From Streptomyces cathayae (lineage in GTDB: Bacteria > Actinomycetota > Actinomycetes > Streptomycetales > Streptomycetaceae): 64,000 nucleotides of DNA. This document shows positions 18,821-53,091 of the stretch, piece by piece (position 1 is the first letter of the stretch; each line of letters begins with the position of its first letter). The translations under genes and the position numbers were made by a program. Location: the NCBI RefSeq assembly GCF_029760955.1, contig NZ_CP121683.1:85550-149549 (forward strand). The letters run 5' to 3'. Under the pieces are notes generated by a model. It searched no databases. It had not been told where the DNA came from and was given only the letters and a program-made list of their open reading frames with translations.

Positions 18821-19710
18821 TTATGCAGCCAGGGCTGCGGCTGGGGTCATGATGGTCTCGTACTCGACGGGGGTCAATCGGGCCAGGCGTTTCTGGCGCC
18901 GGCGTCGGTGGTAGGTGCGCTCGATCCAGGTCACGATCGCGATCCGCAACTCCTGGCGGGTGGCCCAGGTACGGCGGTCGAGGACGTTGTTCTGCAGCAG
19001 CGCGAAGAAGCTCTCCATGGCCGCGTTGTCGCCGGCGGCACCGACTCTCCCCATCGATCCGATCATGCTGTGACGTGCGAGAACTGCGACGAACTTCCGT
19101 GAGCGAAACTGCGACCCGCGGTCGGAATGCACAATGCATCCTGCGACCTGGTCGCGACGGGCGACGGCGGATTCAAGGGCTCTCACGGCGAGGCTGGACT
19201 TCATCCGGGCATCGATGGAATAGCCCACGATGCGGCCCGAGTAGACGTCCTTGACCGCGCACAGGTACAGCTTGCCCTCGCCGGTGGCGTGTTCGGTGAT
19301 GTCCGTCAGCCACAGCCGGTTCGGCCCGTCGGCGGTGAAGACGCGCCGCACCCGGTCGTCGTGGACCGCAGGGCGGCCTTGACGGTCTTCCCGCGGCCTC
19401 TGCGCTTGCCGAACGCGCTCCACCACTGGTTGTCGCGGCAGATCCGCCAGGCGGTCCGCTCGGCCATCGGCTCACCGGCTGCGCGGGCCTCGTCGAGGAG
19501 GAAGCGGTGGCCGAACTCCGGGTCGTCGCGGTGCGCGTTCAACAGGGCGTTGGCCCGGTATGCCTCGGCCAGCTCGGCATCGGTGACCGGGCAGGCCAGC
19601 CACCGGTAGTAGGGCTGGCGGGTCAGATTGAGTACCCGGCACGTCACCGCCACCGGCACCCGGCAAGGGGCATCGGCGGCGGCCAGCTCGCGGACGAGCG
19701 GGTACATCAT
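18821..19710 (-). pseudogene. IS3 OrfB transposase, one frameshift
   Basis: Begins at ATG 19710, overlapping the OrfA stop. The first frame has LNLTRQPYYRWLACPVTDAE and HRDDPEFGHRFLLDEARAAG. Near 19365 a shift leads into VFTADGPNRLWLTDITEHAT (first Asp), CIVHSDRGSQFRS (second Asp) and GDNAAMESFFALLQNNVLD (Glu), ending at 18821. All catalytic residues exist when the frames are joined. The frameshift is not at the OrfA/OrfB junction, where a programmed one would be expected. Confidence 0.8.
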
Positions 19711-20000
19711 TTTGACGGCAGGTTTGCCTGCGACAAATACGCCGCAGCCCTGCGCAGCACCTCGTTCTCCTGCTCCAGGAGCCGGATGCGCTTGCGGGCC
19801 TCGCGCAGCTCGGCCGACTCACCCGACACTGGTGCGGGCCCGGCGCCCTCCTCGGCGTCGGCGCGGCGCAGCCACTTCGACAGCGTGATCGGGTGGACGC
19901 CGAAGTCGGCGGCGATCTGTTCCAGCGTGACGCCGGGCTCGCGGTTGCGCGCGACCCGCACGACGTCCTCGCGGAACTCCTTCGGATACGGCTTGGGCAC
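19707..20000 (-). CDS. IS3 OrfA
   Basis: 97 aa. KEFREDVVRVARNREPGVTL with VHPITLSKWLRRADAE forms the helix-turn-helix, and LREARKRIRLLEQENEVLRR is the leucine zipper. The stop at 19707 overlaps the start of OrfB by four bases. Confidence 0.88.
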   Translation of the reverse strand: MPKPYPKEFREDVVRVARNREPGVTLEQIAADFGVHPITLSKWLRRADAEEGAGPAPVSGESAELREARKRIRLLEQENEVLRRAAAYLSQANLPSK

Positions 20001-20070
20001 TGCAACATCCTTCCAGGCCGCCTCTCAGCAAGCCAGGTCAGGTGTCACCTGTCCGTGCAGCAGTCCCATC

Positions 20071-20813
20071 TGGCCGGGCGGACCGTGGCAGAGATGCAAA
20101 AGCGCCTGGTGAGTCTGAGCGATGAGTTTCTTATGCCCGCCGGTGCGGTGGAGGACTGGGAATGGCCGTGGGACGCGCGGGCCGGCTACGTCGTCCAGGC
20201 TTGCTCCCTGTGTGCGGCGCAGCGTGGGACCCGCTCTCCGGCGTGGTTGATCCTGCCCGACCCGTGGCATGTGTGTCTGCGTCATCAGCGGTGGACGGAC
20301 AACTCGCGCAGCATCCGGCGTCCCTATATCGATCTCCGTCCTCTGCGTGAGGTCGTGCAGGCTCAGCAGCGTCTGAACCGGGTCGTGAAACGCCTGGGCC
20401 CCGTCGCCGCACGGTGGGTGCAGGCGGACGCGTATTCCATCCTGGCGCACTCCGGCTGTCCGTACAGGCCCGAGAAAGTGAGGCAGTGGAACCAGTTGGC
20501 TGTGGAGTTAGGTGAGCAGCGGGTGCGGCCGCTGGCCCAGTTCGGCTGGCTGGCCCTGCTGACTTGGGATCTGGCCTGGCTGGAAGTACGGCGCCTGAGC
20601 GGTGCGCTGAGCAAAGCCGAGCACCGGGAGTGGCTACCGCGGGTCAGCCGGCGGTACGGCTACAGGTTGGCCGGGCCGTTGGCCATCTGGCACGGTCAGC
20701 ACCGTCCTCTTGCGCACGACTACCTCACGGTGGTGCGCAGCGGTCAGCCACTGAGTAAGTGGATCAGGGACGAGATGAGCAAGGCCACCAGGCACGCGCT
20801 CCCCTCCCCCTGA
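20071..20813 (+). pseudogene. tniQ: tniQ 3' part
   Basis: This resumes the TniQ frame after the IS3 element: LAGRTVAEMQKRLVSLSDEF, then the zinc-finger region CSLCAAQRGTRSPAWLILPD with WHVCLRHQRW, the C-x2-C then C-x2-H arrangement of TniQ proteins, and a helical tail ending at 20813. It is 247 codons long, and the joined protein is 320 aa, a short TniQ rather than a long TnsD type. It lies 300 bp upstream of tnsA on the same strand. Confidence 0.85.
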
Positions 20814-21113
20814 CGTCGCTGGAGGATTCGACGTGCCTTCCCTGGGTGCGGCTGCCCGACTCGATGGACCGGCTGTTCCTCTGACCCCGCTCGGCGGCGG
20901 TGCGTTGTGTGTCATTCTGCGGCGGCCGGGGATCAGCCGGCGCCGCCTGTCGGCCGGCTACGAGGGCGGTAGCAGGCGTTCTGGCGAGATCGCAATCCGG
21001 ACCCACTCGTTCGGGTGAGCCAGACGGCTCCTCCTACCGGGTGGCGCGGCGGACGGGGATGCTGCGTCCTGTGTCCGGGGCGCCCTGGGCACGGTACGGG
21101 TGGAGGGCAGCCG

Positions 21114-21821
21114 ATGGAGGTGCGGGTCCGTCACCGCGACGACCTGGGTCGTGAGCGGCTGGTGTCGGCTGCCGTGCTGCGGGGGACACCGGTGGAGGAA
21201 TGGCCGGTGTTGAACGAGCAACGTCCTTACAAGGGCCGCAAGTCCAAGGTGTCGCGATGGTGGTCGTCAACCACGAAGAAGGACATCCTGTGCCGGTCGA
21301 AGGAGCACGCGTTCGCGGCGATGTTCCTCGACCGCGACCCGGACATTGCCTATCTGGGCGCTGCGTCACTGCAGTTGGAGTACGGGGTGGGTGAGGGCAA
21401 GGTCGTGGTGGAACCGGCTTTTTTGGCCCGTACGGTGGGCGGGCAGCGTGTGTTCTACTTCTACTCCCCCGCCTGGCGGGAGCCGGATGAGCAGGAGTGG
21501 GCAGTGGCGCGGGCCGCGGCCGACGACGCGGGCTGGGAGGTGCGGGCTGCGTACGCGCCGGCAGGTCAGCTGCGCCGCAACGTGTACATCGTCTCCCAGT
21601 TCCGCCACGACGAGTATCCCGATGAGGCGGCGAAGGGTGCCTTGCTGGAGGTGTTCGCGCGGCCGCGGTCCGCAGGTGAGGGGGCCGATGCCGCGGGTCT
21701 GCCCCCGGGCCAGGGCAGGGCCCGTTGCTGGCATCTTCTGTGGACGGGGGCGCTGACCTGCGACTGGGAGCGGCCTTTGACTCCGGACAGCATGGTGTGG
21801 GCCGTCCAGGAGGCGCGGTGA
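21114..21821 (+). CDS. tnsA: TnsA-like transposase endonuclease subunit
   Basis: 235 aa from ATG 21114, preceded by GGAGGG. A frame open from GTG 21015 could add 33 residues but has no family similarity. TnsA cuts the 5' ends of Tn7-like elements. Glu64 in RSKEHAFAAMFLDRDPDIAY fits the first catalytic Glu, and LQLEYGVGEGKVVVEPAFLA aligns with the strand that normally reads PDFLV; here the Asp position is Ala (PAFL, residues 101-104), and the following strand (RVFYFYSP) lacks the expected Lys. The GTGA overlap with tnsB shows coupling. The fold assignment rests mostly on context and this pattern. Confidence 0.78.
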   Translation: MEVRVRHRDDLGRERLVSAAVLRGTPVEEWPVLNEQRPYKGRKSKVSRWWSSTTKKDILCRSKEHAFAAMFLDRDPDIAYLGAASLQLEYGVGEGKVVVEPAFLARTVGGQRVFYFYSPAWREPDEQEWAVARAAADDAGWEVRAAYAPAGQLRRNVYIVSQFRHDEYPDEAAKGALLEVFARPRSAGEGADAAGLPPGQGRARCWHLLWTGALTCDWERPLTPDSMVWAVQEAR

Positions 21822-24208
21822 GTGTCCCGGCCGCGCCGGTGGCGGATCCCCTGCGTTCTGCGCCTGCCGGAGGGGCGGACGGTCTGCGGCCGGGGATGAC
21901 CGTGCGGTGGAAGGCCGGGCGGTATCTGATCGGTGCTGTGCAGGGCACCCTGGTGCACCTGGTCGCCCTGGAGGAGGGCGGGCAGGACGCGCTGGTCGTG
22001 GTCTCGGTCCTTGTCTGTGCCGCGGACTTCGCGGTGCTAGAGGGTGACGGGACGCCGCAGGAGCCTGAGGCGGAGCCGGACTGGGCGGTGCTGAACCGGC
22101 TTGCCGAACATCATCTGAAGCAGATGCGGGACTGGGAGGAACACGTCCGCGAAGTACTGACCGGTCGCCCGGTCGGCTCGCAGGGTGCGTTCGTCCCCCG
22201 CCCGGGCTATGACCCGGCAACGACCACCCGGACCGAGCGCTATGCCCTGAAGGCCACCGAGCTGAAAGCTGTCGGCCTGCGCGGTTCGGTCGCCACGGTG
22301 CAGCGTAAATGCCTGGCCTACGAGAAGCAGGGGCTGCTCGGCCTGGTCGATGAGCGGTGGCTGCGCACCACCGCCCCCTACGGTCGCGTCGACGAGCGGG
22401 TGGTGGAGGTGATCCGCCAGCAGGACAAGGCCCAGGACGGCTTGTCGGTGGGCACGCTCTCACGCCTGCGCACCCAGGTACGTACCGCGCTGCGCCACGC
22501 ATACCCGAACGAGTACAAGGAGTTGATGCCCGCCCGGTCCACCTTCTACGACCTGCTCAAACGCCTGGGGATCTCCCACGCCTCCGCAGCGCCCGCAGGC
22601 AGGGACAAGCAGGGGCCCGAGCCGCCCTACCAGCCGGTCATGGTGTCGCTGCTGGGGGAACGCGTCCAGATCGACTCCACCGGACTGGACGTGGTGGCCC
22701 GCGGGGACGACGGCCGGCCGGTCTCGCTGGAGCTGACCTACGCCATCGACACCCTCAGCCGCACCATCCCGGCCGGGATCGTCGTGCCCAAACGGCCCGG
22801 CCGCAAGAAGGGGCCCGGAAGCCGACGCCGCGGGGGGCGCGGCACCAGGTCCCTGGACGCGGCCCTGCTGCTCGCACAGGCGCTGGCCCCCCTGCCGGCA
22901 CGTCCCGGCTGGTCGCCTCAGGCCCTGGCCGAGAACTCCGACCTGCCCTACGAGCAGATGGCCGCCGGCGATCCCCGCATGGCAGGTGCGGCCGCCCGGC
23001 CGGTGGTGCGCCCCAAGACGGTGGTCGTCGACAACGCCAGGATCTTCAAGGCCCAGCATTTCAAGGACGCGTGCAGCATGCTGAACATCGGCGTGGAGCC
23101 CGCCCGGGAACGCACCGCCGAAGACAAAGCGATCATCGAGCGCACCAACCACTCGATCAAGAACGGATTCTCCCAGTTCGTCGCCGGCTACACCGGCGAC
23201 AGCCTGGCCACGCGCGGGAAGAGGGTCGGGCAGGAGCGGTTGTGGCCGATCAACCGAGTGCAGGAGATGTGGCACGAGTGGGTGGCCACCCACTGGCAGC
23301 AGCATCCACACGAAGGGCTGCGCTCCCCCTTCCTGCCCGGCCTCGTCCTCACACCGAACCAGATGTACGCCGCCGCCGTCGCCACGGAAGGCGCCGTGCC
23401 CCGGCCCGCCACCCCCGACGAGAACCGCAAACTGCTGCTCAACGTGAAGCGGATCGTCACCCGCGAGGGCATCCGGATCGACAACCGCACGTATATCAGC
23501 CACCGCATCAGCGAGTTCAAGAACCGCCACACCGGCATCAAGGGACAGGGCCGCCATTGGTCGGTCTACTACAACCCCTACACACCGGGCCGGGTATGGC
23601 TGTACGACCACACGGCCGAGAAGGACCCGGCCCGCAGCCCGTGGGTGCCGTTCGACTTCAAGTACCAGCATTTGATCAACGATGCCTGGACCCAGTACCT
23701 GTGGGAACGGGCCGCCGACATCGTCGCGGACCGTTGCGGCCGGGAAGGTGGCGAGGAGGAGATCACCCGCGCCGTGGACGAACTGCTGGACCGCGCACGC
23801 AAGGGTCCCTCGCCCAAAGACACTCCGGCCGTCCGTGACGCCGTGCCGGTGGCCGCGTTCGTCCCTCAGCCGGTGGACATCGCCGAGACGCCCTTCAACC
23901 CCTACGCGGGCATCGCCCCGGCCGACCCCGCACGCGTGCCCGCCGCGCCGTCGCTGAACGTCCCCGCCAGGGACCTCTTCCCCGGCCAGCGGACCGTGCC
24001 GGCACCCGTCGAGCCCGACCCGGTCGATCCCGACGACGCACTGCCCCCTGCCGCAGACGGACCTCCGCGCCGTCGCCGCCCCGGCCCCGCGAAGACGCCC
24101 CGTCTGGACGGAGCGGCCGGAGACATCTTCCGCAATCTCGCCGCCGAGCCGCCCTCCCGCGCCGGAGAAGACCCGTCGTCGGCCTCCCCCATCCCGCAGG
24201 AGACCTGA
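21818..24208 (+). CDS. tnsB: TnsB-like DDE transposase (Mu/Tn7 family)
   Basis: 796 aa from GTG 21818 (AGGAGG at 21808-21813), overlapping the tnsA stop. HTH regions come first (KAVGLRGSVATVQRKCLAYE; SVGTLSRLRTQVRTAL). The RNase H catalytic core has Asp286 (RVQIDSTGLD), Asp405 (VVVDNARIF) and Glu441 (KAIIERTNHSIKNGF), with exactly 35 residues between the second Asp and the Glu. The Mu-type C-terminal beta-barrel follows (RIDNRTYISHRISEF; HWSVYYNPYTPGRVWLYD) and then a Pro-rich tail that could contact TnsC. No frameshift is present. It makes the 3' strand cuts and joins. Confidence 0.93.
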   Translation: MSVPAAPVADPLRSAPAGGADGLRPGMTVRWKAGRYLIGAVQGTLVHLVALEEGGQDALVVVSVLVCAADFAVLEGDGTPQEPEAEPDWAVLNRLAEHHLKQMRDWEEHVREVLTGRPVGSQGAFVPRPGYDPATTTRTERYALKATELKAVGLRGSVATVQRKCLAYEKQGLLGLVDERWLRTTAPYGRVDERVVEVIRQQDKAQDGLSVGTLSRLRTQVRTALRHAYPNEYKELMPARSTFYDLLKRLGISHASAAPAGRDKQGPEPPYQPVMVSLLGERVQIDSTGLDVVARGDDGRPVSLELTYAIDTLSRTIPAGIVVPKRPGRKKGPGSRRRGGRGTRSLDAALLLAQALAPLPARPGWSPQALAENSDLPYEQMAAGDPRMAGAAARPVVRPKTVVVDNARIFKAQHFKDACSMLNIGVEPARERTAEDKAIIERTNHSIKNGFSQFVAGYTGDSLATRGKRVGQERLWPINRVQEMWHEWVATHWQQHPHEGLRSPFLPGLVLTPNQMYAAAVATEGAVPRPATPDENRKLLLNVKRIVTREGIRIDNRTYISHRISEFKNRHTGIKGQGRHWSVYYNPYTPGRVWLYDHTAEKDPARSPWVPFDFKYQHLINDAWTQYLWERAADIVADRCGREGGEEEITRAVDELLDRARKGPSPKDTPAVRDAVPVAAFVPQPVDIAETPFNPYAGIAPADPARVPAAPSLNVPARDLFPGQRTVPAPVEPDPVDPDDALPPAADGPPRRRRPGPAKTPRLDGAAGDIFRNLAAEPPSRAGEDPSSASPIPQET

Positions 24209-25290
24209 TGCCCACCACGCACACCTCGCAGAGCCCAGTCACCCTAGATGTGGCCCCGGCCCCCTTGTACCGACTGCTGGATCCCGACCTGCTCTCGACG
24301 CGCGAGGGTCTGATGGACTTCGTGCACCACGAACCCAAGCCCCCGGACCTGGCCGACTGTGCCCCCTCGGGCACGAAACTCCCCGACACCGACGTGCGGA
24401 TGATGTACCACGGAAACCTGCCCTGCGTGAGCACCCCCGACGTGACCCGGGGTCTGCTGGACGCCCGTCGTACTCTGCGCACCAACCGGTTCAGGCGAGT
24501 CGGAAAGCGCATGAGCATGGTCATCGACGGGTGTGCCGGCAAGTCCACCCTGCTGGCGCAGATCGCCCGCGCCTATCAGGGACTGCTGGAGAACGAACGC
24601 CGGCCGGACAGGGAATGGACCCCCGTCGTCTACATCAACGTCCCGCCGCGCCACGAATGCAACCTGGACTGGTCCCTGCCCTTCGCCGACTTCTTCGGCA
24701 TGGACCACACCCTCAACCTCGACAAGCGGACCTACCGCAGCACCGACATGACCGAACCGGTCATCCACACGATGCGGGAGAGCGGCACCTCCCTGATCTG
24801 CATCGACGGGATCGACCGCATCCACAGCAACGACCTGACGAAGGCCTTCGCCTACTTCGACAGCCTGCAGGCCCGTCTGCGCGCCTCCGTCATCTACTGC
24901 GGAAACGGTGCCGTCGACATCGTCGAGGAAGCTCTCCGCCATCGCCGTCACGGCGAACGCCCCGACCAGTCCGAGCAGTTCCGCACCACGCTGCCCGTGA
25001 TGCGGATCCGCCGCATCCCCTTCCACGAGGGACAGCAGGACGCCTGGCGCACCGTCCTGATGGACTACGACAAGAACCTCCGTCTGTACAACCATGTCCC
25101 TGGTGCAGGAAAGCTCCTCGACTTCGACACGGAGCTCCACGCGCGGACCGGCGGCTACATGGACACCCTGGATCAGCTCCTGTGCCAGACCGCTCAGCAG
25201 TCCATCGAGGACGGCACCGAAGCGATCACCCAGGAAGGTCTCGACGACATGGTCGTCGGCCGCGGCGACCTGGAGGACGACTGGGCATAG
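24208..25290 (+). CDS. tnsC: TnsC/TniB-like AAA+ ATPase
   Basis: 360 aa. The ATG shares one base with the tnsB stop (TGATG), with CAGGAG upstream. Walker A is DGCAGKST (Lys112), Walker B is SLICIDGID (Asp200), and a sensor-like YCGNGAVDI follows. The size suits a TnsC-type ATPase that links the target selector (TniQ) to the transposase. It ends the tniQ-tnsA-tnsB-tnsC block. The next genes are on the opposite strand and end at 25536; the 245 bp between hold nothing I can identify. Confidence 0.9.
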   Translation: MPTTHTSQSPVTLDVAPAPLYRLLDPDLLSTREGLMDFVHHEPKPPDLADCAPSGTKLPDTDVRMMYHGNLPCVSTPDVTRGLLDARRTLRTNRFRRVGKRMSMVIDGCAGKSTLLAQIARAYQGLLENERRPDREWTPVVYINVPPRHECNLDWSLPFADFFGMDHTLNLDKRTYRSTDMTEPVIHTMRESGTSLICIDGIDRIHSNDLTKAFAYFDSLQARLRASVIYCGNGAVDIVEEALRHRRHGERPDQSEQFRTTLPVMRIRRIPFHEGQQDAWRTVLMDYDKNLRLYNHVPGAGKLLDFDTELHARTGGYMDTLDQLLCQTAQQSIEDGTEAITQEGLDDMVVGRGDLEDDWA

Positions 25291-25535
25291 GGTCTGCTTC
25301 CGGCAACGCCCGGGCAACCGATATTTGAGCGGCCAGGCGAGGGACGGGGGTTGCTCGCGGTGAGTTCCCAATCCGGCTTCGGGTGCGTGCTGGCAGGGTG
25401 GAGCACCACGAGCGGCGGTAGTGGGTTGGGTTGGCTGTGCGATGGCTGTCGGCGCCGCCGGGCACAGAGGCCAGGGACACAAAGAACCTGTGGCAGCGGC
25501 TCATATCGGTCTGCCCACGGGGCTGATGGTGAGCT

Positions 25536-25981
25536 CTACAGGGGTGACGCGCCGGCTGTGGCAGGTCCAGGCGGTTCCCGTCCAGCGCCCTCCCGGCAGG
25601 CGAAGATCAGCGCGACGACACTGTGGAAGCCGAGCTCAGGATCTTCCGCGAGCTGACGGTAGGTGGCCGTGTCGCGTGCACTGGGGCCGGGAGGCCCGCG
25701 GGATGGGTATGCCATTCACCGACCCAGACGCTGCGGTCGGCCGTGAATGCCTCGTCGGCGAGTATCTGAGCGTGCCCGAGGTCGCGCAGGAAGTACGTAG
25801 GGGTGCGGACGGCGGCAGGTCCGGGGGCCCCGGCGTGGCAGATCGTGACGGTGTATCTGGTGTGGTGTCCGAGCAGGATTCCCCCGGTCTCGGTGGTGTG
25901 GTCGACCGTGTGCAGTTCGGTGGTGATCGCGAGGGCGGCCGGAGCAGTGAGGTGTACGACGGTCACGGGCTGCGGGGTCAT
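25536..25981 (-). CDS. JAB/JAMM deubiquitinase-like protease (Cap3-like)
   Basis: Begins at ATG 25981, overlapping the E1 stop (ATGA). It reads TGGILLGHH with Glu31 before it, then WVGEWHTHP (His91, His93). Near 25680 the frame needs a 1-nt correction; the second frame continues SARDTATYRQLAEDPELGFH, which completes the JAMM signature H-x-H-x7-S-x2-D, and reaches a stop at 25536. About 147 aa. In type II CBASS, Cap3 removes the CD-NTase from its conjugated targets. The protein is a stand-alone domain and is the last gene of the four-gene operon. Confidence 0.8.
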
Positions 25982-27256
25982 GGCGCTTCGCAGGTGGGGC
26001 AGCCGGGCCGCGGCGGGGTGGCGGGAAGCCAGCGAAGTTCGGCGGTGCGGCCGAGGTCGAAGGGCGCGGCCCAGCCAGGTTGGCGGCGCAGTCCGATCAG
26101 GGCGTGTTCTCCGGGGAGGCGCTGATCGGGGTGTCCGGCGTGTTCGAGGAGGGTGGCGGCGGCGGTCTTCGCCGCGAGGTGGGCGACGAGGTGGAGGTCC
26201 GGGCCGACGGCGGTCATCGGTCGGTGTCGGGTTCCGGTGCCGTATCCGGCGTCCAGGGCGGGTTCGGGGTCGAGGCTGCCGGCTTCGGTGAGGCTGTGGC
26301 GGCGGCAGGTCAGGCAGCCGTGCGGCGCCATGGGTGCAGCCGGATGATTTCGCCGAGGGCTCCGTACTGCAGAACGCAGGCAAGGATGGCGGTGCGGTCC
26401 GCGCGGCGGGCCAGGTGGCCGGTGACGCGGCGTGCGGCCACCCCGTCAGCCGTACACACGACGAGGTGGGTGTCCATGAGGAGGGCGCGGATCTGGTCGG
26501 CGTGCTCGATGACGTCCAGGGCGAGGGGGTGACGGCGGTGTCGGGGCGCAGCTGGGTGAGTTCCTCAGCCAGTGCGGTGACTTTGGTGCGGCCGATGTGC
26601 CTGCGGGAACTGGTGTGCCGGACGAGGTTGTGCCATTGGAGGCGGTCAGGATCGACGAGGGTGAGGTGCCCGATGCCGTAGCCGGCCAGCGCATGCGCGG
26701 TGGCCGAGCCGATACTCCCCGCCCCGACCAGCATGATGTGGGCATTCTGCAGTTCCTGTACGGGCCAGTGATGGTCGAGTTGCCGAATCCCGGTGGTTTC
26801 GGGCTCGGCCGACATCTCGAGGGGCTGGAAGCCCGCGCGGGTGACGTGCCAGGCGACGAGGTCGGGCAGACGGCTTTCGGGATAAGCGTCCTTCACGCCG
26901 GGGGCGTGGGTGAGGGCGACATAGCCGCCGTCGCCCGGCGTCTTGAAACCGTTGGGGACGGCGTCCTTGAACACGTCAAGTTTCATGGCCGTGTCACGCC
27001 GTACTCGCAGGAGGTGCCAGAGCGCGTGCAGTTCGTTCTTGGCCCGGTACCAGTAGCCGGTAGGGCGGGAGTCGCAGCTGGCGAGCAGGCGGGGGGCGGG
27101 CGGCGGCGGGTCGACCGAGATGATGGAGCCGCCGCCCTCGGAGATTCCGCCTACCACAGCGAGGTCGTCCGGCTGGCTGATACGCAACGACAGCCGGCCC
27201 CATGCGCCCGAGGCGCGGAGTACGGTCGCGGCGTCCTGTGGAATGAGGATCAGCAC
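25978..27256 (-). pseudogene. E1/ThiF-like adenylating enzyme, two frameshifts
   Basis: Begins at GTG 27256, overlapping the E2 stop by 7 bp. The first 160 residues are unlike the adenylation domain and unassigned. Then comes the ThiF/E1 nucleotide fold: IMLVGAGSIGSATAHALAGY (GxGxxG, Gly178-183), LTLVDPDRLQWHNLVRH (Asp202), RRHIGRTKV. A frameshift near 26525, in a C run, leads to LALDVIEHADQIRALLMDTH and VVCTADGV, and a second near 26328 to HGCLTCRRHSL and CPTCEAP, with CxxC pairs that could bind zinc. It stops at 25978. About 425 aa when joined. Its role would be to activate a C-terminal glycine by adenylation. Confidence 0.78.
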
Positions 27257-27807
27257 GCGGGACCGTCCTGCCCGCCGTCCCCGGGTGGCGGGGGCTGGGC
27301 CAGGAAGTGGTCGAGCCGGTGGTCGGTGACGATGCCGCTGCCGGTCATCTCCTCGATCGCCTGGTATTTCATCAGCGCGTACTCGATCCGCCAGCCGGCG
27401 GCCTTCAGTAGCAGGTCGACAACGGTCTCACGGCCCGTCCATACGTCGTCCTGCAGGAGGCACAGGCTGGCGTCTCCGTTGACGTGCCAGATGTGCTGGG
27501 TCCACTCGAACGGGGCGGGCAGCGGGTCCAGCGGGATGATGCGCGGGGCCACCATGGGGTAAGCCTGGCTGTATGCCAGGCGCAGTCGGAGGCCGCTCTC
27601 GCCTATCCAGTCGGTGAGGTGGGTGGGCTCGGGCCGACCGAACGGCCAGCGCGGCAGCGTGCCCTCCCAGCTTCCCGCTCCCTCGTCACTGAAGACGAGG
27701 TCCGGGAAGTGGGCAGGGATCTCCTCCCGGTCTCGTCGCAGTCGGCGTGGTTCGCACTCCCACCAGGCGATGGGAGTGCGGGCGCCACAGACAGGTGCGG
27801 TCGTCAT
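27250..27807 (-). CDS. E2-like conjugating protein
   Basis: 185 aa from ATG 27807; the ATG overlaps the CD-NTase stop (ATGA). An E2-like fold is suggested by RLRLAYSQAYPMVAPRIIPL (the P-x3-P strand) and WHVNGDASLCLLQDDVW, with Cys116 in the place of the E2 catalytic cysteine, followed by TVVDLLLKAAGWRIEYALMK. In known type II CBASS this domain is the N-terminal half of Cap2; here it is its own gene. It would accept the CD-NTase from the E1 and pass it to a target. Confidence 0.8.
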   Translation of the reverse strand: MTTAPVCGARTPIAWWECEPRRLRRDREEIPAHFPDLVFSDEGAGSWEGTLPRWPFGRPEPTHLTDWIGESGLRLRLAYSQAYPMVAPRIIPLDPLPAPFEWTQHIWHVNGDASLCLLQDDVWTGRETVVDLLLKAAGWRIEYALMKYQAIEEMTGSGIVTDHRLDHFLAQPPPPGDGGQDGPAC

Positions 27808-28778
27808 CCCTGGGGTGCGTCCTTGATGGGGCGGGGGCTGATGAGCGCGGGCGCGCCTATCAACGCGGTGCTCTTGGGGGCAGCGGCGGGAGCCGGGAAG
27901 TCCTCACCGAAGATCTCCTGCCACAACCGCAGCGCCTCGTCTGTGTCGCCTTCGGCCGCCGCCGTGCAGGCCTGGTCTGCCAGGTCCGCGGCTTCGGCGA
28001 ACGCAGCCGACAGACCTTCGCGATCCAGGTCGGGCTGGATCTCGCCGCACAGACCGGCCGGGTCCCACACGCCTTCGTTGACCCGGGTCGCGGCGGCGGT
28101 GAAGAACGTCTTCAACCCCTGGCAACGGTTGCCGGACGCGGGCAGGCACTGCAGGGCAAGGACCTCCATGACGAGGGACTTGATGCGCCCTTCGACCTGC
28201 ACGTCGAGTCGCCACTGCTTGAGCAGCCTGACCAGCGGCCGGAAGTACGACCAGTCCCGCTGGTGTTCGGCCACCATGTTGATCAGGTATTCGGGGTTGG
28301 CTGGCACCCATCGGGCGCTGAGCTGCTCGGGGATGAGCAGCGAGTTGTCAGGCTGGCGCAGCGCGGCCATGACGTCGACGGTGAAGGCCTCCGGGTCGTC
28401 GGGGTCGTCGAGGAAGCACTTGACGGCGTGGTTGCGCAGCAGGGTGTGCCGAACCACGGTGGCGTGAGTGCCTTTGCTCTGGCTCAGCAGCCGGTTGACC
28501 TGGGAGCGGATGTGCTCGAGGGCCTCCTCCGCGCTCGGCCCGCTGCTCCCCCACTCGGGGTGTTCGTCCGGGTCGTAGACGACGACGATGTCAACGTCGT
28601 GGATGGGCTTGAGCTGCGTGCTGCGGCTCAAGGAGCCCGATCCGAACGTCTCGAGGACGTCGGGCTCTTTCAGCAGCGCCTCCTTGAACAGGTCCCGGCG
28701 CCCGCGGGCCAGCCGCGTTTTCTTGATGTCCTCGTCGACGGACTTCTGCAGCGCGTCGAATGCCTCGTCGATCCCCAT
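27804..28778 (-). CDS. CBASS cGAS/DncV-like nucleotidyltransferase (CD-NTase)
   Basis: 324 aa from ATG 28778, preceded by GAGGAGG six bases away. The active site is complete: GSGSLSRST (Gly46 to Ser53), HDVDIVVVYD (Asp61, Asp63) and FTVDVMAAL (Asp135). The C-terminal half has the OAS-type helical region (YLINMVAEHQRDWSYFRPLV, RLLKQWRLDVQVEGRIKSLV). The last residue is glycine (KDAPQG), as required in type II CBASS, where the CD-NTase C-terminus is conjugated by Cap2. On phage infection it would make a cyclic oligonucleotide for Cap4. The frame is open to 29216, but that part lacks similarity. First gene of the operon. Confidence 0.9.
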   Translation of the reverse strand: MGIDEAFDALQKSVDEDIKKTRLARGRRDLFKEALLKEPDVLETFGSGSLSRSTQLKPIHDVDIVVVYDPDEHPEWGSSGPSAEEALEHIRSQVNRLLSQSKGTHATVVRHTLLRNHAVKCFLDDPDDPEAFTVDVMAALRQPDNSLLIPEQLSARWVPANPEYLINMVAEHQRDWSYFRPLVRLLKQWRLDVQVEGRIKSLVMEVLALQCLPASGNRCQGLKTFFTAAATRVNEGVWDPAGLCGEIQPDLDREGLSAAFAEAADLADQACTAAAEGDTDEALRLWQEIFGEDFPAPAAAPKSTALIGAPALISPRPIKDAPQG

Positions 28779-29030
28779 GCGGTGTGCCTCCTCGGGCTCG
28801 CCGTTCAGCCCGGGCACGCCCCGGCCGCGGCTCCTGCGAGGCGCGGCCGAAAACGGACGTTCGATGGCTGCTCGTTCCCACGGTACGGGCACCCGCTGAC
28901 AACGCCCCTGGGACCAGGTCGCGTTGATCTTCATGGCGTGGGGTGTCCCGTACCGTGCCGCCGATCCGGCTGCCGAGGGGCAACGCATCGAGCAATCAGG
29001 AGGCTGCCCCGTCAGGCATGGAACGCTCGC

Positions 29031-29078
29031 CCCGCGAAGCGGGATCGCACGAGGGTGCGCTCCCGTAAGAGCGCACCC
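29031..29078. repeat. Two adjacent hairpins in the CBASS intergenic region
   Basis: CCCGC-GAA-GCGGG (29031-29043) and a perfect 10-bp stem GGGTGCGCTC / GAGCGCACCC with a 6-nt loop (29053-29078). They sit in the 460-bp gap between the divergent CD-NTase and 29241 genes. They could be a small structured RNA, a terminator of an unseen transcript, or regulatory sites. I see no coding sequence in the rest of 28779-29240. Confidence 0.45.
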
Positions 29079-29240
29079 CGGCCGACGAGCTGGGGGGACA
29101 TGGGATGTTTCGGGCAGTTGAGGCGGCCTCGTCGTCATCAACCTCCCGCACGGCATGCGTTCAGCCACGGCACGTCGCAACGGGGCGAAGGTTGCCTGAT
29201 GCGGCGCTAAGATCATCGAGCTGAGTGTTGAGGGGGCAGC

Positions 29241-30173
29241 ATGGCCGTCGCCATAGTCGACGCCGTCAGGCTCGCGAAGGCGAACCGACGGAGGTACGAG
29301 CGTCTACTTGAGTGCCACGAGGAGCTCAACCAGCGGGCAGCCGCGGAGAACGCCGCCCAGCACAAGGCACGGCAGACGCTCTACGACGAGGCCCTCGTCC
29401 CCTTCTATGACGTTTTTCGGCGGCTCAAGCACGCCGATCTGGTCGATCTGGCCGCGATCGAGATGCCAACCGTCGGCGGCGACGTGGACATTGTGCTCCG
29501 GCGATTGCGCGAACGCGCTGTGACGGCCGCTGTCGGCGCGCTGGCCGGCGGCGCGCTCGCAGGTTACGGCGCCTGGGCAGGCACCTACCTCGCGGTGGGC
29601 GCCTTCGCCTCCGCCTCGACCGGCACGGCGATATCGGGGTTGTCCGGGGCGGCCGCCACCAGTGCCACGCTCGCATGGCTGGGAGGCGGGTCTCTTGCCG
29701 CAGGCGGTGGCGGGGTGGCGGCCGGGACAACGGTGCTGTCCGTGATCGTCGCGGCTCCAGCCGTTCTCTCGCTGGCTGCCATCGTGGAGTGGCAGGGCCG
29801 CGCAGCCAGACGCGGCCAGCGGGAGATGGCGCAGGACCTGGAGCGGGCCGAGACGGAGATGAGCGCGGCGGAGGATGCGGCGTCCGCACTGTACGCGCGC
29901 AGCAAGGACATACGTCGCGTCCTGCGGGACCTTCGGTTCATCCTGGTAAGACGGCTGCCGTCATTCACCGCGCTGACCGAAGCGTGCGACGACTTCACCC
30001 GGTACGACTCCCGTCAGCGCGCCGAGGTAGCCACGATGGTGGATCTCGCCGGCCTCGCCGTCATGGTCATGAGTTGCCCGATCACGGACGCGGATGGACA
30101 GTTGACCGAGGAATCGGGGCTGGTCGTCGCCGACGCCGAGGCCCGGCTGCGGGTGTTGGACACCGAGGCGTGA
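29241..30173 (+). CDS. Glycine-zipper membrane protein in the CBASS locus
   Basis: 310 aa from ATG 29241, with GAGGGGGC upstream. Three parts: an N-terminal charged coiled coil (residues 10-65); a Gly/Ala-rich hydrophobic block at about 93-182 containing many G-x3-G spacings (GALAGGALAGYGAWAG, GLSGAAAT, WLGGGSLAAGGGGVAAG), long enough for three or four membrane helices; and a second coiled coil with a helical tail. I do not recognise the family. It lies between the CD-NTase operon and cap4 but on the other strand; its 3' end is 11 bp from the cap4 3' end. A pore-forming effector or regulator is possible. Confidence 0.7.
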   Translation: MAVAIVDAVRLAKANRRRYERLLECHEELNQRAAAENAAQHKARQTLYDEALVPFYDVFRRLKHADLVDLAAIEMPTVGGDVDIVLRRLRERAVTAAVGALAGGALAGYGAWAGTYLAVGAFASASTGTAISGLSGAAATSATLAWLGGGSLAAGGGGVAAGTTVLSVIVAAPAVLSLAAIVEWQGRAARRGQREMAQDLERAETEMSAAEDAASALYARSKDIRRVLRDLRFILVRRLPSFTALTEACDDFTRYDSRQRAEVATMVDLAGLAVMVMSCPITDADGQLTEESGLVVADAEARLRVLDTEA

Positions 30174-30184
30174 GCGGGCAGGGT

Positions 30185-31654
30185 TTACGCGTCGACGACG
30201 AACGCCTTCTCATACACCTGCTGTCCGTTGACGTCCTCATACACAGTGGTGGGTCGCAAGCGGTTCCACCGATTGCCCAGCAGCAGAGCCAGGCCCATCG
30301 GGCCGGCCTGGAACAGGTGGATCGCTGGATGTGTGCGGCAGGCACGACGCAGCAGGCCCCGGATTCCGACGGCCAGTGCGCTGGCCGTGGCCGCATCCGG
30401 GATCGCGTTGTCCTTCGCGCCGCCGGGTGGGCGCAGCACCAGCAGACGGGAGACGGGTATCTGCTGCTCCCGCAGAAAGTCCAGCACGTCCTCGGTGGGG
30501 TCGACAGCGACGCCTATGGCCACGGCGAGGTCCGGTCCGAGACCGAGAGCGTGCTCATCAACATCCGGGGCCAGCACAGCGTCGTACTCGGCAGCGGACG
30601 ACCAGACCTGTCCGCGCTGGGCCACGGCCAAATCGACTCCGGTCACCATGCGGAAAGCCGCGCCGACCACAAACGCGGGTGCGAGACGCAGGCTGCCGGT
30701 GACGGCGATGGAGGTCGTGCCCGGCGGCATCCGAAACGGTGCCGCTTCGATGTCCGCCTGCAACTGCGCCCAGGTCGCCGGGGCAAGCGGACGCCGCTTC
30801 ACGTAGGGCGAGGCGCCCTCGAAGTGGTCCGCCCAGTCCACCGCGTAGTCGGCGTCCTCCGCCATCGGGTCCGGTTTCAGCGTGGCGACGGAAAGCACCG
30901 CCCGTGACGAGCCGGCCTCCAGACGCAGAGACTGGATCGCCTCCCTGACATCCGCCAGAGACAGCCTGCGCTGCCCATCGGCGACTTGGCGCGCCACCCA
31001 GTCCGCTCCGGCGTGCATAGCCCCCTCGTCGAACCGTAGCCCCGCAGCAAACATCAGCATCTGCAGGTGCTCATGCAGGTGCAGCACGTCCCGTGCCAGG
31101 TCGAAGCGCAGCACCTTCAGAAGATCCAGCAGCCTGTCCTCGCTCAACCCGATGCCGGCGGCCCAACGACTGCGCGCTTGCCCCTTCTTCGAACGCGGTC
31201 CCTGCTGCGCCGCCTTCGGCACGAGCAACTGGGTGCGGGAATCCCGCAGCGAGATCAGCGGATCCCCGGCGTCCGGGGACCGGTTACTCAACAACGCAAG
31301 ATCAACCGGCAAGCCGTCCCCGGCGAGTTGCTGCCAAGCCTGTGCCACCTTGCGCAGGATCGACGGACCGCCCTGGTCGCTCGGCTTGAGCAAGTACTCC
31401 TCGTTGACAGGTGAGGAACTGTCCGCGGCGTATTTGACCTGCATATAGGTATGCGGTGGCTCCGTACGGTACAGGACAACGTCATCCACGTTCCCCACAC
31501 CATCCATCTCGACGCCCACCGCCACCACCGGGTTCGGCACGCGCATCGCCGCGTCCCGTACCGCTGTGACGCAGCCCTGCCACGCGACCAGCCACTGGTA
31601 CCGGTCACCGGCGATACGAACACCCGTCGAACTCGGGGCAGGCAAGTCAGACAC
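30185..31654 (-). CDS. cap4: Cap4-like CBASS effector: endonuclease with SAVED domain
   Basis: 489 aa from GTG 31654, with GGGAGG upstream; an in-frame ATG at 31684 would add 10 residues. The N-terminal PD-(D/E)xK nuclease of the Cap4 type is visible: GDRYQWLVAWQGC, VGVEMDGVGNVDDVVL (Glu49, Asp57) and YMQVKYA (Gln72, Lys74). The C-terminal third has the SAVED fold: GSLRLAPAFVVGAAFRMVTG, PDLAVAIGVAVDP and IHLFQAGPMGLALLLGNRWN. SAVED binds the cyclic oligonucleotide and triggers DNA cutting. No frameshift. The gene is separated from the CD-NTase by the opposite-strand gene at 29241. Confidence 0.87.
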   Translation of the reverse strand: MSDLPAPSSTGVRIAGDRYQWLVAWQGCVTAVRDAAMRVPNPVVAVGVEMDGVGNVDDVVLYRTEPPHTYMQVKYAADSSSPVNEEYLLKPSDQGGPSILRKVAQAWQQLAGDGLPVDLALLSNRSPDAGDPLISLRDSRTQLLVPKAAQQGPRSKKGQARSRWAAGIGLSEDRLLDLLKVLRFDLARDVLHLHEHLQMLMFAAGLRFDEGAMHAGADWVARQVADGQRRLSLADVREAIQSLRLEAGSSRAVLSVATLKPDPMAEDADYAVDWADHFEGASPYVKRRPLAPATWAQLQADIEAAPFRMPPGTTSIAVTGSLRLAPAFVVGAAFRMVTGVDLAVAQRGQVWSSAAEYDAVLAPDVDEHALGLGPDLAVAIGVAVDPTEDVLDFLREQQIPVSRLLVLRPPGGAKDNAIPDAATASALAVGIRGLLRRACRTHPAIHLFQAGPMGLALLLGNRWNRLRPTTVYEDVNGQQVYEKAFVVDA

Positions 31655-32065
31655 GGAACGCAACCTCCCACTCGAGGCCGCCATACCGCAGCCACCGGGC
31701 AAATCATCGCCCTCGCCCCTTCGCCGTGCCCACCCCCCGGCGCCGAGAGACCATAGCGCTGAACATGGCGTTCACAAGCCCGCCCGGGACCTGGCGAGCT
31801 TGAAAAGATCGACGGGAGATCGCAGCAGGCATCCGCACTCCCTCAGGTCCCTGCTCTATACGCGTCCAAGGTCACTTGATGTGAGTCCAGGGCAAGTTGC
31901 GGCGAGCCAGTTCAGAGGCCTACGGATCAGAGAACCTGCAGGTAAGCAGCTCTCAGATGTTGTCCGAACGCAGTTGAGGTGCTCCAGGTCAGAAAGGCCA
32001 GCCGAACACCAAGATCACATCATCTCTAGCTGGTCGCGACACCACGCGGCCACGCTGAGGAGCTC

Positions 32066-32197
32066 GCGGTCGACGGCGAGACCGAGCCGGTGATCGTCAA
32101 GCTGGGCGTATGGATCTCCAACACCAAAACCAGGCGGGACAAGCTCAGCGCGGAGCAGCTGGCCGCGCTGCGGAAGTTGGGCGTGGAATGGGCGTAG
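32066..32197 (+). pseudogene. Helicase-associated domain, C-terminal remnant
   Basis: The frame ending at TAG 32195-32197 encodes ETEPVIVKLGVWISNTKTRR and LSAEQLAALRKLGVEWA, the last HA repeat of a Streptomyces helicase-associated protein. Nothing upstream continues it: 31655-32065 contains no gene I recognise and appears less GC-rich than its surroundings. It is a leftover 3' end, possibly of an older resident gene cut by insertion of the element to its left. The stretch 32198-32398 is also without recognisable coding sequence. Confidence 0.55.
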
Positions 32198-32398
32198 CGA
32201 CCTTTGACAGGATCTGTCGCCAGCTACTGCCACTCATACGTCGCCCATCGTTGAGGCTCTCACACGGTACGTTGCCCTTGCCGAAAACCTCATCCGCCGA
32301 GGTAGGAGCCGGTGTGCGGGATGCGCGGGTTCTCGAGCACGGACGCTGGAATCGGTGCTCTCGCGGGACTGGCGATCACCCCGGCATGATGGCTGCTC

Positions 32399-33496
32399 GT
32401 GCTGCTACGACTGGCTTACCTGACCGTGACGAACGCGTTCGCCGTGCTGCGCCTGCTGCCCATGAGCGACCGGGACATGGAAACGGAGATCCTCGCCCTC
32501 CGGCATCAGATCACGGTGCTGGAGCGCCAACTCGGTGGCGAAAAGGTTCGGTTCTCCCCGAACGATCGCGCGTTCCTGGCGGCGTTGCTGCACCGCCTGC
32601 CCTCGCAGGTGCTGCGCAGGATACGGCTGGTGGTGCGTCCGGACACCGTGCTGCGCTGGCACCGCGATCTGGTCGCACGCCGCCACGCTGCGCGCTCCCG
32701 GCCCAAGCGCCCGGGAAGGCCGCGGACCGTGCGCTCCATCCGGCTGCTGGTGCTGCGGCTCGCCCGCGAGAACTCCAACTGGGGATACCGCCGCATCCAT
32801 GGCGAACTCCTCGTTCTGGGCGTTACGGTGGCCGCCTCCACCGTCTGGGAAATCTTGAAGGAGGCCGGCATCGACCCGGCGCCCGAGCGGGCCTCGAGCA
32901 CCTGGGCGGGCTTCCTGCGTTCCCAGGCCGACGCGCTCCTGGCGTGCGACTTCTTCGAGACCGTCACCTTGTCCGGGGCCCGCTTGTACGTGTTCGCCGC
33001 GATCGAGCACGCGAACCGCCGGATCCGGGTCCTCGGCGCCACCGCGCACCCCACCGCATCCTGGGTGACGCACGTCGCGAAGAACCTCGTCATGGACCTC
33101 GAAGACGCCGGCTGCCGGGCCAGGTTCCTGATCCGGGACCGGGACGGGAAGTTCCCGCGGTTGTTCGACGAGGTACTCAAGGACGCGGGTATCGAGGTGG
33201 TGCTCAGCGGAGTACGGATGCCGCGCATGAACTCAATCATGGAGCGGTGGGTGCAGACCTGTCGGCGCGAGCTGCTGGACCGCACCCTGATCTGGAACCA
33301 GCGACACCTGCTCCACGCGCTACGCGAGTTCGAAAACTTCTACAACTCCCACCGGCCCCATCAAGGCATCGCCAACGCCCGCCCGCTACGCCCCTTGCCG
33401 ATGCCGATCAGCGATCCGAAGCAGATCACCCGCCTCGACATACGACGACGCCAACGACTCGGCGGCATCCTCCACGAGTACCGACATGCCGCATGA
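32399..33496 (+). CDS. Integrase-core transposase (actinobacterial IS, integrase type)
   Basis: 365 aa from GTG 32399. The N-terminal region has ILALRHQITVLERQLGGEKV and LHRLPSQVLRRIRLVVRPDT, VLRWHRDLVARRH, and the rve integrase core has NWGYRRIHGELLVLGVTVA, LLACDFFETVTLSGARLYVF (Asp), RFLIRDRDGKFPRLFDEVLK (Asp) and RMPRMNSIMERWVQTCRREL (Glu), then the NFYNSHRPHQGIANARP tail. It looks complete and unbroken. The fragment at 2272 belongs to the same family, as may a short piece near 63305-63420. I did not find terminal repeats. Confidence 0.85.
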   Translation: MLLRLAYLTVTNAFAVLRLLPMSDRDMETEILALRHQITVLERQLGGEKVRFSPNDRAFLAALLHRLPSQVLRRIRLVVRPDTVLRWHRDLVARRHAARSRPKRPGRPRTVRSIRLLVLRLARENSNWGYRRIHGELLVLGVTVAASTVWEILKEAGIDPAPERASSTWAGFLRSQADALLACDFFETVTLSGARLYVFAAIEHANRRIRVLGATAHPTASWVTHVAKNLVMDLEDAGCRARFLIRDRDGKFPRLFDEVLKDAGIEVVLSGVRMPRMNSIMERWVQTCRRELLDRTLIWNQRHLLHALREFENFYNSHRPHQGIANARPLRPLPMPISDPKQITRLDIRRRQRLGGILHEYRHAA

Positions 33497-44555: not shown

Positions 44556-45045
44556 CGCTGCAGCCTACCGGTGGTCTGTGAGTGAGCAGGTCCTCGCGGG
44601 CAGGCAGCACTGTTCAGGAAGTGGGGCGGAAGGCAGTGGCAGGGCCGATGACGCCCGGGGAGGGGCCGCCGCCGGTGGCGCCGGGACATCCACCGGGCCG
44701 CATCCTTCCGGTTCCTCTGTTCGCCGTGCGCCGTGTCTGGGCTGCACCTTGTGCCGTGCGGGTGGCGGGCGCCCGTTCCGCGGGCCGGGTGCCGCGGTGG
44801 GAGGCTTGTGGGGTTTCTGTGTGGGGCCGGGGTTCTGGGGGCGGTGCTGCTGGTGTGCGGTGGCCTGCTCCTGGCTGTGGTTGTGGGAGGGGCCGTGCGG
44901 CCGGGGTCGAGGGCGGGGTGGTGGGCGGTCCGCTGCCGTTGGTGGTCACGGATCTGCTCGATACGGCGGCTCGGCTCGTCGGGATCCGTGGTCTGCATCA
45001 GGTCGGTGAGGTTCTCGTAGCACACTGAACCGCCCCGGGTTCGGC
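44556..45045. other. Region without a supportable gene
   Basis: Several open frames cross this GC-rich stretch on both strands. A plus-strand frame has a hydrophobic run (VLGAVLLVCGGLLLAVVVGG) and a minus-strand frame begins MCYENLTDLMQTTDPDEP, but neither has a ribosome-binding site, family pattern or balanced composition. I make no gene call here. Confidence 0.4.
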
Positions 45046-45049
45046 AGAG

Positions 45050-46300: not shown

Positions 46301-46788
46301 TGACTCGATCCTTATGGCGAGCCGGGGCGGTTCACCGGCACGACACCACCCCACCCCAGGGGGCGCAGACGCCTCGGTGGGCGCTCCGGGCGCCGCCGAT
46401 CGGCAAAAGGGCTCTGGAGGCTGATCGGCGTGCGGGGGGCCGGGCAGCGCCGCCGTCCTCTTTCCCCTTCTCACGCCCCAGAACAGCGCCGGACTCGCCG
46501 CCTGCGCCGGAGTCATTCGTCGCCGCCCGGCCCGCTGACCAGCACCCATGCTGAGCCGTGGCACCGATCGGCACCGCCTCGGGCGTGCGCCCGGTCATCG
46601 GGCTCTGCCCACCTTGCGGGTCCCAAGTCCGCCGGGTGCGGTGCGCCGCGGGGCTCGCGGCGCGGCGGGGCCGAGCGGTGCCGAGGCTTTGGCCGATCCT
46701 CCAGCATTTTCGACTTATTGCCCCGGAACGCCATCCAAGTCCCGTCCTGAGACGTATCCCGTGTGGAGTAATTTTCAGGAGGAACGCA
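46301..46788. other. Region without a supportable gene
   Basis: Nothing recognisable is encoded between the degenerate IS3 and the histidine-rich peptide gene. The last 60 bp must contain its promoter; they are locally A/T-richer (GTGTGGAGTAATTTTCAGGA at 46760-46780). Confidence 0.4.
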
Positions 46789-46965
46789 ATGGCTATCTTC
46801 AGCAGTCTGATGCCTGCCCATCGCCGGGACCGCAACAACGACACGTCGCGCCGCGACGACTTCTCGGGGCACGGTCACGGGCACGACCACGGGCACGACC
46901 ACGGCGACCGCCACGGGCACGACCACGGCGACCGTCGCGGGCACGGCTACGGCTACGGCCACTAG
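46789..46965 (+). CDS. Small histidine-rich peptide (58 aa)
   Basis: The ATG at 46789 is preceded at ideal distance by a perfect AGGAGG (46777-46782), the best ribosome-binding site in this part of the window. The peptide begins MAIFSSLMPAHRRDRNNDTS, then consists of about 30 residues made almost only of His, Gly, Asp and Arg, as HGHDHGHDHGD-type repeats, ending in HGYGYGH. Such repeats bind Ni, Zn, Co or Cu. It ends 84 bp before an ABC exporter gene on the same strand. It could be a metal-storage peptide, an exported metallophore, or a precursor peptide. It has no signal peptide. Confidence 0.75.
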   Translation: MAIFSSLMPAHRRDRNNDTSRRDDFSGHGHGHDHGHDHGDRHGHDHGDRRGHGYGYGH

Positions 46966-47048
46966 TGACCACGCTACGGAGGCTGAGCGGACCGTAGATT
47001 GAAAGGCCCTGGTCCGCTCCGTCCGTCCCTCCACGAGGAACGCATGCC

Positions 47049-49800: not shown

Positions 49801-49821
49801 GGACGGGGCGGGGCGCCGGTC

Positions 49822-52480: not shown

Positions 52481-52521
52481 TCGGTCGCCCCGGGGCTCAC
52501 GCACGGTTCGGGGCGCGGTTG

Positions 52522-53079: not shown

Positions 53080-53091
53080 CGTCGCTCTCTC

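Follow-up and report, generated by a model that had tools for sequence, protein, structure and literature searches.

The stretch of the Streptomyces cathayae genome analysed here (assembly GCF_029760955.1, contig NZ_CP121683.1, positions 85,550-149,549 of the forward strand; 64,000 nt, referred to below as the window) carries on its minus strand four consecutive genes in the order CD-NTase, E2, E1 and JAB (window positions 28778 to 25501). In characterised type II CBASS, an anti-phage defence system, the E1 and E2 domains are usually fused within a single protein, Cap2. The locus raises the question of whether its separate E2 and E1 genes constitute a genuine two-protein form of Cap2, the remains of a broken fusion, or, as an earlier note on this DNA had raised as a possibility, an intermediate between CBASS and the ubiquitin-like Bil operons.

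The features of the locus are presented in Table 1. ATGA overlaps join the CD-NTase gene to the E2 gene and the E1 gene to the JAB gene, while the E2 and E1 genes overlap by 7 bp. The E1 gene starts with GTG at 27256 and the JAB gene with ATG at 25980; the end coordinate of the latter was taken from the frame showing homology. The earlier description of JAB as a third gene of an ATGA-coupled series was borne out with respect to these two overlaps, but requires amendment in that neither E1 nor JAB forms one open frame in the window, each being interrupted by two frameshifts.

Table 1. Position of the operon genes and of the adjacent effector gene in the window.
Feature	Position	Strand	Evidence
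CD-NTase (CBASS oligonucleotide cyclase), 324 aa, C-terminus ...KDAPQG	27804..28778	-	open frame; matches of the orthologue in related locus L004
Separate E2-like protein, 185 aa, presumed catalytic Cys116	27250..27807	-	PADLOC, UBC fold, profile match
Separate E1-like protein, two frameshifts near 26528 and 26323	25977..27256	-	relatives, PADLOC, Foldseek
JAB/Cap3-like isopeptidase, two frameshifts near 25698 and 25592	25501..25980	-	Prok-JAB, PADLOC, JAMM residues of relatives
SAVED effector with PD-DExK nuclease (Cap4-like), 505 aa, upstream of the CD-NTase gene	30185..31702	-	PADLOC, Pfam

A survey of homologous operons revealed that the split is conserved. E2 and E1 are encoded by separate genes, in different frames, in all 14 related CD-NTase operons identified outside the S. 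cathayae genome, a set with a lowest identity of ~40% that is not composed of independent cases, several operons being near-identical (the tree shows L024 and L041 as near-identical, and the CD-NTases of L004, L005 and L006 agree at 97-99%). The junctions of these operons comprise overlaps and gaps that vary, although the frame always differs, and the 7-bp overlap of the window recurs in 7 of the 14 loci. Annotation gives E2 and E1 as separate genes in four plasmids, where the E2 is named only "hypothetical protein". None of the 120 relatives listed (of 641 E1 matches) is long enough to include an E2, the longest comprising 443 aa. Four hits were set aside: L048, with only E1, JAB and SAVED fragments, plasmid hit H5 (31% of E1), and L011 and L012, with weak partial E2 matches. 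The separation of E2, E1 and JAB is genuine and conserved, and CBASS with a two-protein Cap2 is found in several actinobacterial families, yet is rare.

Comparison of the window with the intact locus L004 of Streptomyces sp. TP-A0874 revealed that single bases are missing at each of the four frameshifts. The S. cathayae genome contains two further copies of the region, which over 13.5 kb show 4 or 13 one-base C/G indels relative to the window and not one substitution. The left chromosomal copy carries E1 in one frame and the right copy has only one of the two E1 frameshifts. Since the copies differ only by C/G indels and one has an open E1, the E1 frameshifts seen in the window can almost certainly be put down to errors of assembly; programmed frameshifting was rejected as an explanation, E1 being open in the intact relatives and in the left chromosomal copy. 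The JAB frameshifts are probably also assembly errors, an attribution that is less certain because both are common to all three copies. This sharing, together with the presence of one E1 frameshift in two of the three copies, would suit a decayed operon with real E1 and JAB mutations and no conjugation in this strain, and such loss does occur in relatives (L043 has JAB spread over two frames, L005 a truncated E1, and L048 is fragmentary). Nevertheless, decay appears unlikely, as indels without substitutions fit sequencing error, as does the fact that different genes are broken in each copy: the TniQ-like, TnsB, SAVED and PDC-M09A genes, open in the window, are in pieces in the left copy. Given that E1 and JAB of this assembly do deviate from their relatives by single bases, one could also suppose that the split itself is an artefact, an indel at the junction having broken up what was a single E2-E1 fusion. 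This explanation is so improbable that we reject it: the junction (27240-27260) has the same sequence in all three copies, and none of the 14 relatives is fused. The 7-bp overlap of two separate genes, as originally read from the window, thus stands.

The E2 protein, whose length and Cys116 were correctly predicted in the earlier note, shows a UBC fold (Foldseek, VIA-align), and the Cys116 column is conserved in 44 of 44 aligned relatives. Its L004 orthologue matches the PADLOC model PDLC00860 "E2" (E 2.4e-81), which also matches the E2 of L025, L044 and L047. A profile of the E2 aligns to the N-terminus of fused Cap2 (probability 95.5). The L004 protein was not assigned to any Pfam family, Prok-E2_B was matched only weakly and by just 2 of the 44 members, no PDB sequence matched the profile at E 1 or better, and Cap2 was not among the best 50 Foldseek or the best 50 VIA-align matches.

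The E1 protein contains a ThiF-type adenylation domain (residues ~166-426), and five cysteines are kept in 53/53 cases. Its orthologue matches PADLOC PDLC00829 (E 6e-199). The N-terminal extension previously estimated at about 160 residues is present (~165 residues ahead of the adenylation domain), but need no longer be regarded as unassigned. The predicted structure (pLDDT 90.9) has Cap2 (Cap2-CdnD02, 7to3) as its best Foldseek match (E 4.5e-19), with moderate TM-scores (0.46/0.37) and an rmsd of 9.2. Because this match spans 437 columns including gaps, far more than the adenylation domain needs, and Cap2 carries a wing domain at the matching position according to PMC12355090, the extension (~1-165) is most likely, as judged from the model, the Cap2 wing/linker domain. 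The E1 profile aligns to the C-terminal part of fused Cap2, covering the adenylation domain alone and not the extension. A search with residues 1-166 yielded 22 proteins, each a close E1 of the split type or a fragment of one (≤427 aa). With VIA-align, which hardly tested residues 1-152, other E1s rank first and Cap2 was not found among the best 50 matches. Phage records contained no close E1; of the 6 distant matches there, four carry a MoeB or ThiF annotation.

The remaining components are those of a CBASS operon. The L004 orthologue of the CD-NTase matches PADLOC PDLC00818 Cyclase (E 5.7e-155) and Pfam SMODS above the cut-off, and the CD-NTase sequence matches solved CD-NTases. The L004 orthologue of JAB matches Prok-JAB and PADLOC PDLC00895; among the 12 relatives with a single-frame JAB, the JAMM motif H-x-H-x7-S-x2-D is present in all, and the upstream Glu, identified by pattern, in 11. 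The SAVED gene matches PADLOC PDLC00741 Effector Endonuclease (E 4.1e-224) and Pfam SAVED. A 59-95% identical SAVED gene lies near the operon in 9 of the 14 relatives, and all 14 operons have an effector nearby, either PD-DExK-SAVED (9) or TIR-SAVED (5). On sequence grounds, this nuclease is the likely effector of the operon. Tn7-like genes neighbour the operon; like the frameshifts, the SAVED effector and the near-identical copies, they were overlooked in the earlier note.

Within the PADLOC models, the four operon proteins fit Cyclase, E2, E1-E2 and JAB best, while none of the four reached the curated cut-off of the NCBIfam CBASS models (the CD-NTase scored 109 bits against CBASS_cyclase_b, cut-off 200). 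The features of type II CBASS that were found include the CD-NTase, the E1 and E2 domains and residues, a terminal Gly, a SAVED effector (by homology) and, in relatives, the JAMM motif; the E1-E2 fusion is absent, making this a variant rather than a typical member. We conclude that the system is very probably a type II CBASS of an actinobacterial clade, in which a free E2 and an E1 composed of wing/linker and adenylation domains together make up a two-protein Cap2. Among the titles and abstract openings of the literature searched, to which Millman 2020 and Ledvina 2023 do not belong, none reports CBASS E1 and E2 as products of separate genes.

The CD-NTases of all 15 operons end in -PQG, as expected of a Cap2 substrate, and a terminal Gly or Ala is present in 7 of 8 CD-NTases of the fused-Cap2 comparators. 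This end and the overlapping neighbouring genes support the earlier suggestion that the CD-NTase is the apparent conjugation substrate. From the observed genes, domains, split, -PQG end and presumed catalytic residues (seen in relatives), we infer the following biochemical steps. Most likely, (i) E1 would adenylate the C-terminal glycine of the CD-NTase and then hold the CD-NTase as a thioester, (ii) the wing of E1 would bind the separate E2, as Atg7 does with Atg3 or Atg10, (iii) the CD-NTase would pass to Cys116 of E2 and be linked to a lysine residue, either in a target or in a second CD-NTase, which would constitute priming, and (iv) the JAB protein would undo this conjugation. A phage-activated CD-NTase would then produce a cyclic oligonucleotide that switches on the SAVED nuclease, leading to DNA degradation.

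It could be argued that E1 and E2 conjugate another partner, e.g. the effector or a host protein with a glycine end. This seems very unlikely in view of the adjoining, overlapping genes and the invariant terminus of the CD-NTases: according to PMC10097602, CD-NTases of operons with a full-length Cap2 end in Gly or Ala, a conservation that it does not report for the other architectures. The proposal that the split represents a transitional form linking CBASS to Bil or other ubiquitin-like operons, or is ancestral to fused Cap2, draws on the separate E2, E1 and JAB genes described for ubiquitin-like operons (Iyer 2006 row 6d, PMC1779556; Bil, PMC11354881), and on the likeness of a free E2 and a wing-bearing E1 to Atg7 with Atg3 (PMC12355090). 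We regard it as improbable and did not find it supported. The best PADLOC matches are to the Cyclase, E2, E1-E2 and JAB models, the E1 model is nearest to Cap2 (Foldseek), and there is no room for a ubiquitin-like gene between the CD-NTase and JAB genes of the window, where the genes overlap. An E1 tree was constructed from 12 loci and 14 of the 120 listed E1 proteins, hand-picked for spread; BilD is absent from it, and L053 (partial ThiF) and L059 (near-copy of L052, in alignment A3) were left out. In this weakly supported tree, rooted on ThiF/MoeB and with long branches flagged, the split E1s group with fused CBASS Cap2s and form one group (support 66/53), whereas the fused Cap2s do not, so that fission accounts for the tree no less simply than an ancestral split would.

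Compared with known systems, the two-protein Cap2 operon has the same parts as fused-Cap2 type II CBASS (E. cloacae Cap2-CdnD02, 7to3; E. coli TW11681), including the probable wing/linker, JAB and effector. The Gly/Ala end of the CD-NTase is also common to both, and the E2 profile matches one end of the fused protein and the E1 profile the other; the difference is that the E2, there part of Cap2, is a separate protein in the Streptomyces operon. The CdnG-E2 complex of Serratia marcescens (8yjy) belongs to type II short CBASS. According to PMC11153139 this type has E2 only, whereas the split operons have an E1 and JAB, with E1 beside E2 in 14/14. Atg7 with Atg3 or Atg10 is eukaryotic and its substrates are beta-grasp ubiquitin-like proteins. 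Bil and Iyer 2006 row 6d also have E1-like, E2-like and JAB proteins encoded by separate genes, but include a ubiquitin-like protein (PMC11354881 and PMC1779556); in the Streptomyces operon the CD-NTase stands in its place and no such protein was seen between the CD-NTase and JAB genes.

The split clade is already represented in the PADLOC library. Models PDLC00860 (188 aa) and PDLC00828/PDLC00829 (431/426 aa), which from their names we take to be CBASS models, cover the split E2 and E1 almost from end to end. All three are models of parts, and PDLC00828 and PDLC00829 are named "E1-E2" although, at that length, they could not accommodate an E2. Combined with E2 genes annotated as "hypothetical protein", such E1-only models bearing an E1-E2 label may cause these systems to be misread as lacking an E2.

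We tentatively suggest that these operons may represent an actinobacterial subtype of type II CBASS in its own right. Its cascade of two proteins would resemble that of Atg7/Atg3, the free E2 carrying a cyclase rather than a ubiquitin fold away from an E1 that bears the wing. A loose E2 could set the rate of conjugation or the choice of target independently of activation, and surveys with a "Cap2 lacking E2" class may in part have placed such systems there, their E2 gene having been overlooked. A two-subunit Cap2 would allow the E1 and E2 steps to be separately purified, mutated and titrated, which is hard with the fused enzyme, and would provide a bacterial parallel of the arrangement of Atg7 with a free E2.

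The operon described in the earlier note is present in the window, with separate genes for E2-like, E1-like and JAB proteins next to a CD-NTase gene. ATGA junctions link CD-NTase to E2 and E1 to JAB, and the E2 and E1 genes overlap by 7 bp. The CD-NTase and E2 genes are as the note had them, but neither E1 nor JAB forms one uninterrupted reading frame; each is broken across frames, which had been overlooked.

Features of the CBASS operon and its neighbourhood (window coordinates)
Feature	Position	Strand	Details
CD-NTase	27804-28778	-	324 aa
E2-like gene	27250-27807	-	185 aa, Cys116
E1-like gene	start 27256	-	
JAB gene	start 25980	-	
SAVED protein with PD-DExK nuclease part	30185-31702	-	upstream of CD-NTase; PADLOC PDLC00741, E 4.1e-224
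Tn7-like genes	19893-25290		convergent with CBASS operon
TnsA-like	within 19893-25290		NCBIfam NF033179, 98 bits (cut-off 110)
TnsB	within 19893-25290		Mu-transpos_C, 20.3 bits (cut-off 21.7)
TnsC/TniB	within 19893-25290		21.1 bits (cut-off 22.4)
TniQ-like	within 19893-25290		by eye; no family match

Relative to the locus of Streptomyces sp. TP-A0874 (L004), one base is missing at each of four places in the window: near 26528 and 26323 (E1) and near 25698 and 25592 (JAB). The two remaining internal gaps are of 3 bases each. By its coordinates, the window forms the end of C2, a 149.5-kb contig. The stretches searched for repeats (1-32500 and 45000-64000) recur at both chromosome ends, except 1-1421, which is found at the left end only; thus, the terminal repeats of the chromosome are present a third time, on C2. 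This contig may be a plasmid sharing the chromosome ends, or an assembly duplicate. The 45000-64000 stretch is 99% identical to the chromosome ends, with a length difference. Over the 13,501 bases of 19000-32500, the right and left copies differ from the window by 4 and 13 one-base indels, respectively, all of C or G, with no substitutions. E1 is in one frame in the left copy (profile positions 3-425, no stop), while the right copy retains one of the two E1 frameshifts; the TniQ-like, TnsB, SAVED and PDC-M09A genes are in pieces in the left copy and all open in the window. Since different genes are broken in different copies and substitutions are absent, the E1 frameshifts of the window are almost certainly sequencing errors. 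For JAB this explanation is only likely, because both gaps are common to all three copies.

The separation of E2 and E1 is real. A tblastn survey covered, besides one of this genome's own copies (L021), 15 loci outside this genome, 14 of them with a CD-NTase (L004-L007, L023-L025 and L041-L047); the fifteenth (L048) contains only operon fragments. E2 and E1 are separate ORFs in all 14, in different frames in every case, and the junction is identical in the three copies of this genome. Neither fused homologues nor a junction indel, which would have spoken against the earlier proposal, was encountered among these loci and copies. With the start closest to the alignment, the junction is a 7-bp overlap in seven relatives, another overlap of 1-14 bp in four and a gap of 10-17 bp in three (the annotated start of L044 gives a 26-bp overlap instead). 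JAB lies downstream in a single frame in 12 of the 14, and plasmid gene tables also list E2 and E1 separately. The hosts are Streptomyces (7), Arthrobacter (1) and six others of the same genus (2), order (1), class (2) and phylum (1). The loci are not independent (the CD-NTases of L004-L006 are 97-99% alike). The E1 of L005 (within L005:5570-7905) is cut after residue 213; a downstream 442-aa ORF appears transposase-like by eye.

In protein searches, among the best 120 of 641 E1 matches (7997 candidates with most words in common scored, lengths up to 1.75 times the query admitted) the longest relative has 443 aa, and among the best 120 of 213 E2 matches it has 281 aa. For 35 of these 120 E2 matches (29 of 62 when restricted to contigs of at least 10 kb) the longest contig equals in size that of an E1 match, which fits co-occurrence.

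A SAVED protein 59-95% identical to that of the window is encoded near the operon in nine relatives (including L007, though the start of its SAVED is ambiguous); the five remaining relatives (L025 and L044-L047) have a TIR-SAVED protein (PDLC00728) as neighbour. Between the CD-NTase and SAVED genes lies a divergent gene (29241-30173, + strand) for a 310-aa protein matching the PADLOC phage-defence candidate PDC-M09A (E 1.6e-24), for which tblastn found no counterpart in any of the other 15 loci. TnsB/TnsC relatives adjoin the operon in L004, L006, L007 and L024, and distant TnsA/TnsB in L025; CBASS as cargo of Tn7-like elements has been reported (PMC8649781). Where an intact Streptomyces locus was seen on a replicon that is one contig or complete and linear (the two copies on the chromosome, C1 of G000, and L024, L041, L042 and L043), it lies at most ~30 kb from an end: ~7 kb in G058 (no topology given) and ~4, 8.5 and 2.5 kb in plasmids. 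A partial plasmid match (H5) is ~57 kb from the replicon end.

The split-type genes are rare. In the phylum, 2 of 396 genomes had a match to the E2 model; in the class, 4 of 394 matched the E1 model (at 1e-40), one of the four by a fragment. The E2 protein was found in 6 of 199 relatives, two by weak partial matches; each of these counts includes this genome. PADLOC already has models fitting separate E2 and E1 without E2, and the genes are therefore catalogued as CBASS parts. In ubiquitin-like operons, the occurrence of E2, E1 and JAB as separate genes was described as early as 2006 (PMC1779556); we found no description of CBASS with split E2/E1 in the literature searched, which did not extend to the two papers closest to the subject.

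A tree was built from 39 adenylation domains: 26 split-type (including 14 from proteins taken without view of gene context), 8 fused and 5 ThiF/MoeB-like, with no BilD. In it, the CBASS E1s separate from the ThiF/MoeB-like outgroup (support 100/99). The split E1s form one group (support 66/53; recovered in 62% of bootstrap trees); no such group unites the fused E1s. This topology, in which long branches were flagged, leans towards an origin of the split E1s by a single fission of fused Cap2.

The CD-NTase ends in -PQG in the window and in all 14 relatives. According to Jenson et al. (PMC10097602), Gly or Ala is the last residue of 1,583 cGAS proteins whose operons have full-length Cap2 and Cap3, and this terminus is not conserved in operons without an E2 domain. 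Among our nine fused comparators, seven of the eight listed CD-NTases have a terminal G or A; two of the seven are near-copies. The fused-Cap2 CBASS of Ancylobacter (L058) has a CD-NTase ending in -LP and no JAB in its incomplete gene table. With their conserved terminus, as against no conservation without an E2 domain, the split systems behave in this respect like full-length Cap2 systems. By analogy, the most likely scheme is one in which (i) E1 would activate the CD-NTase tail, (ii) E2, bound to the N-terminal wing of E1, would receive the CD-NTase and then conjugate it, (iii) JAB would reverse the conjugation and (iv) the primed cyclase would signal to the SAVED effector. Our guess is that part of the class recorded in surveys as having no E2 domain may consist of split systems.
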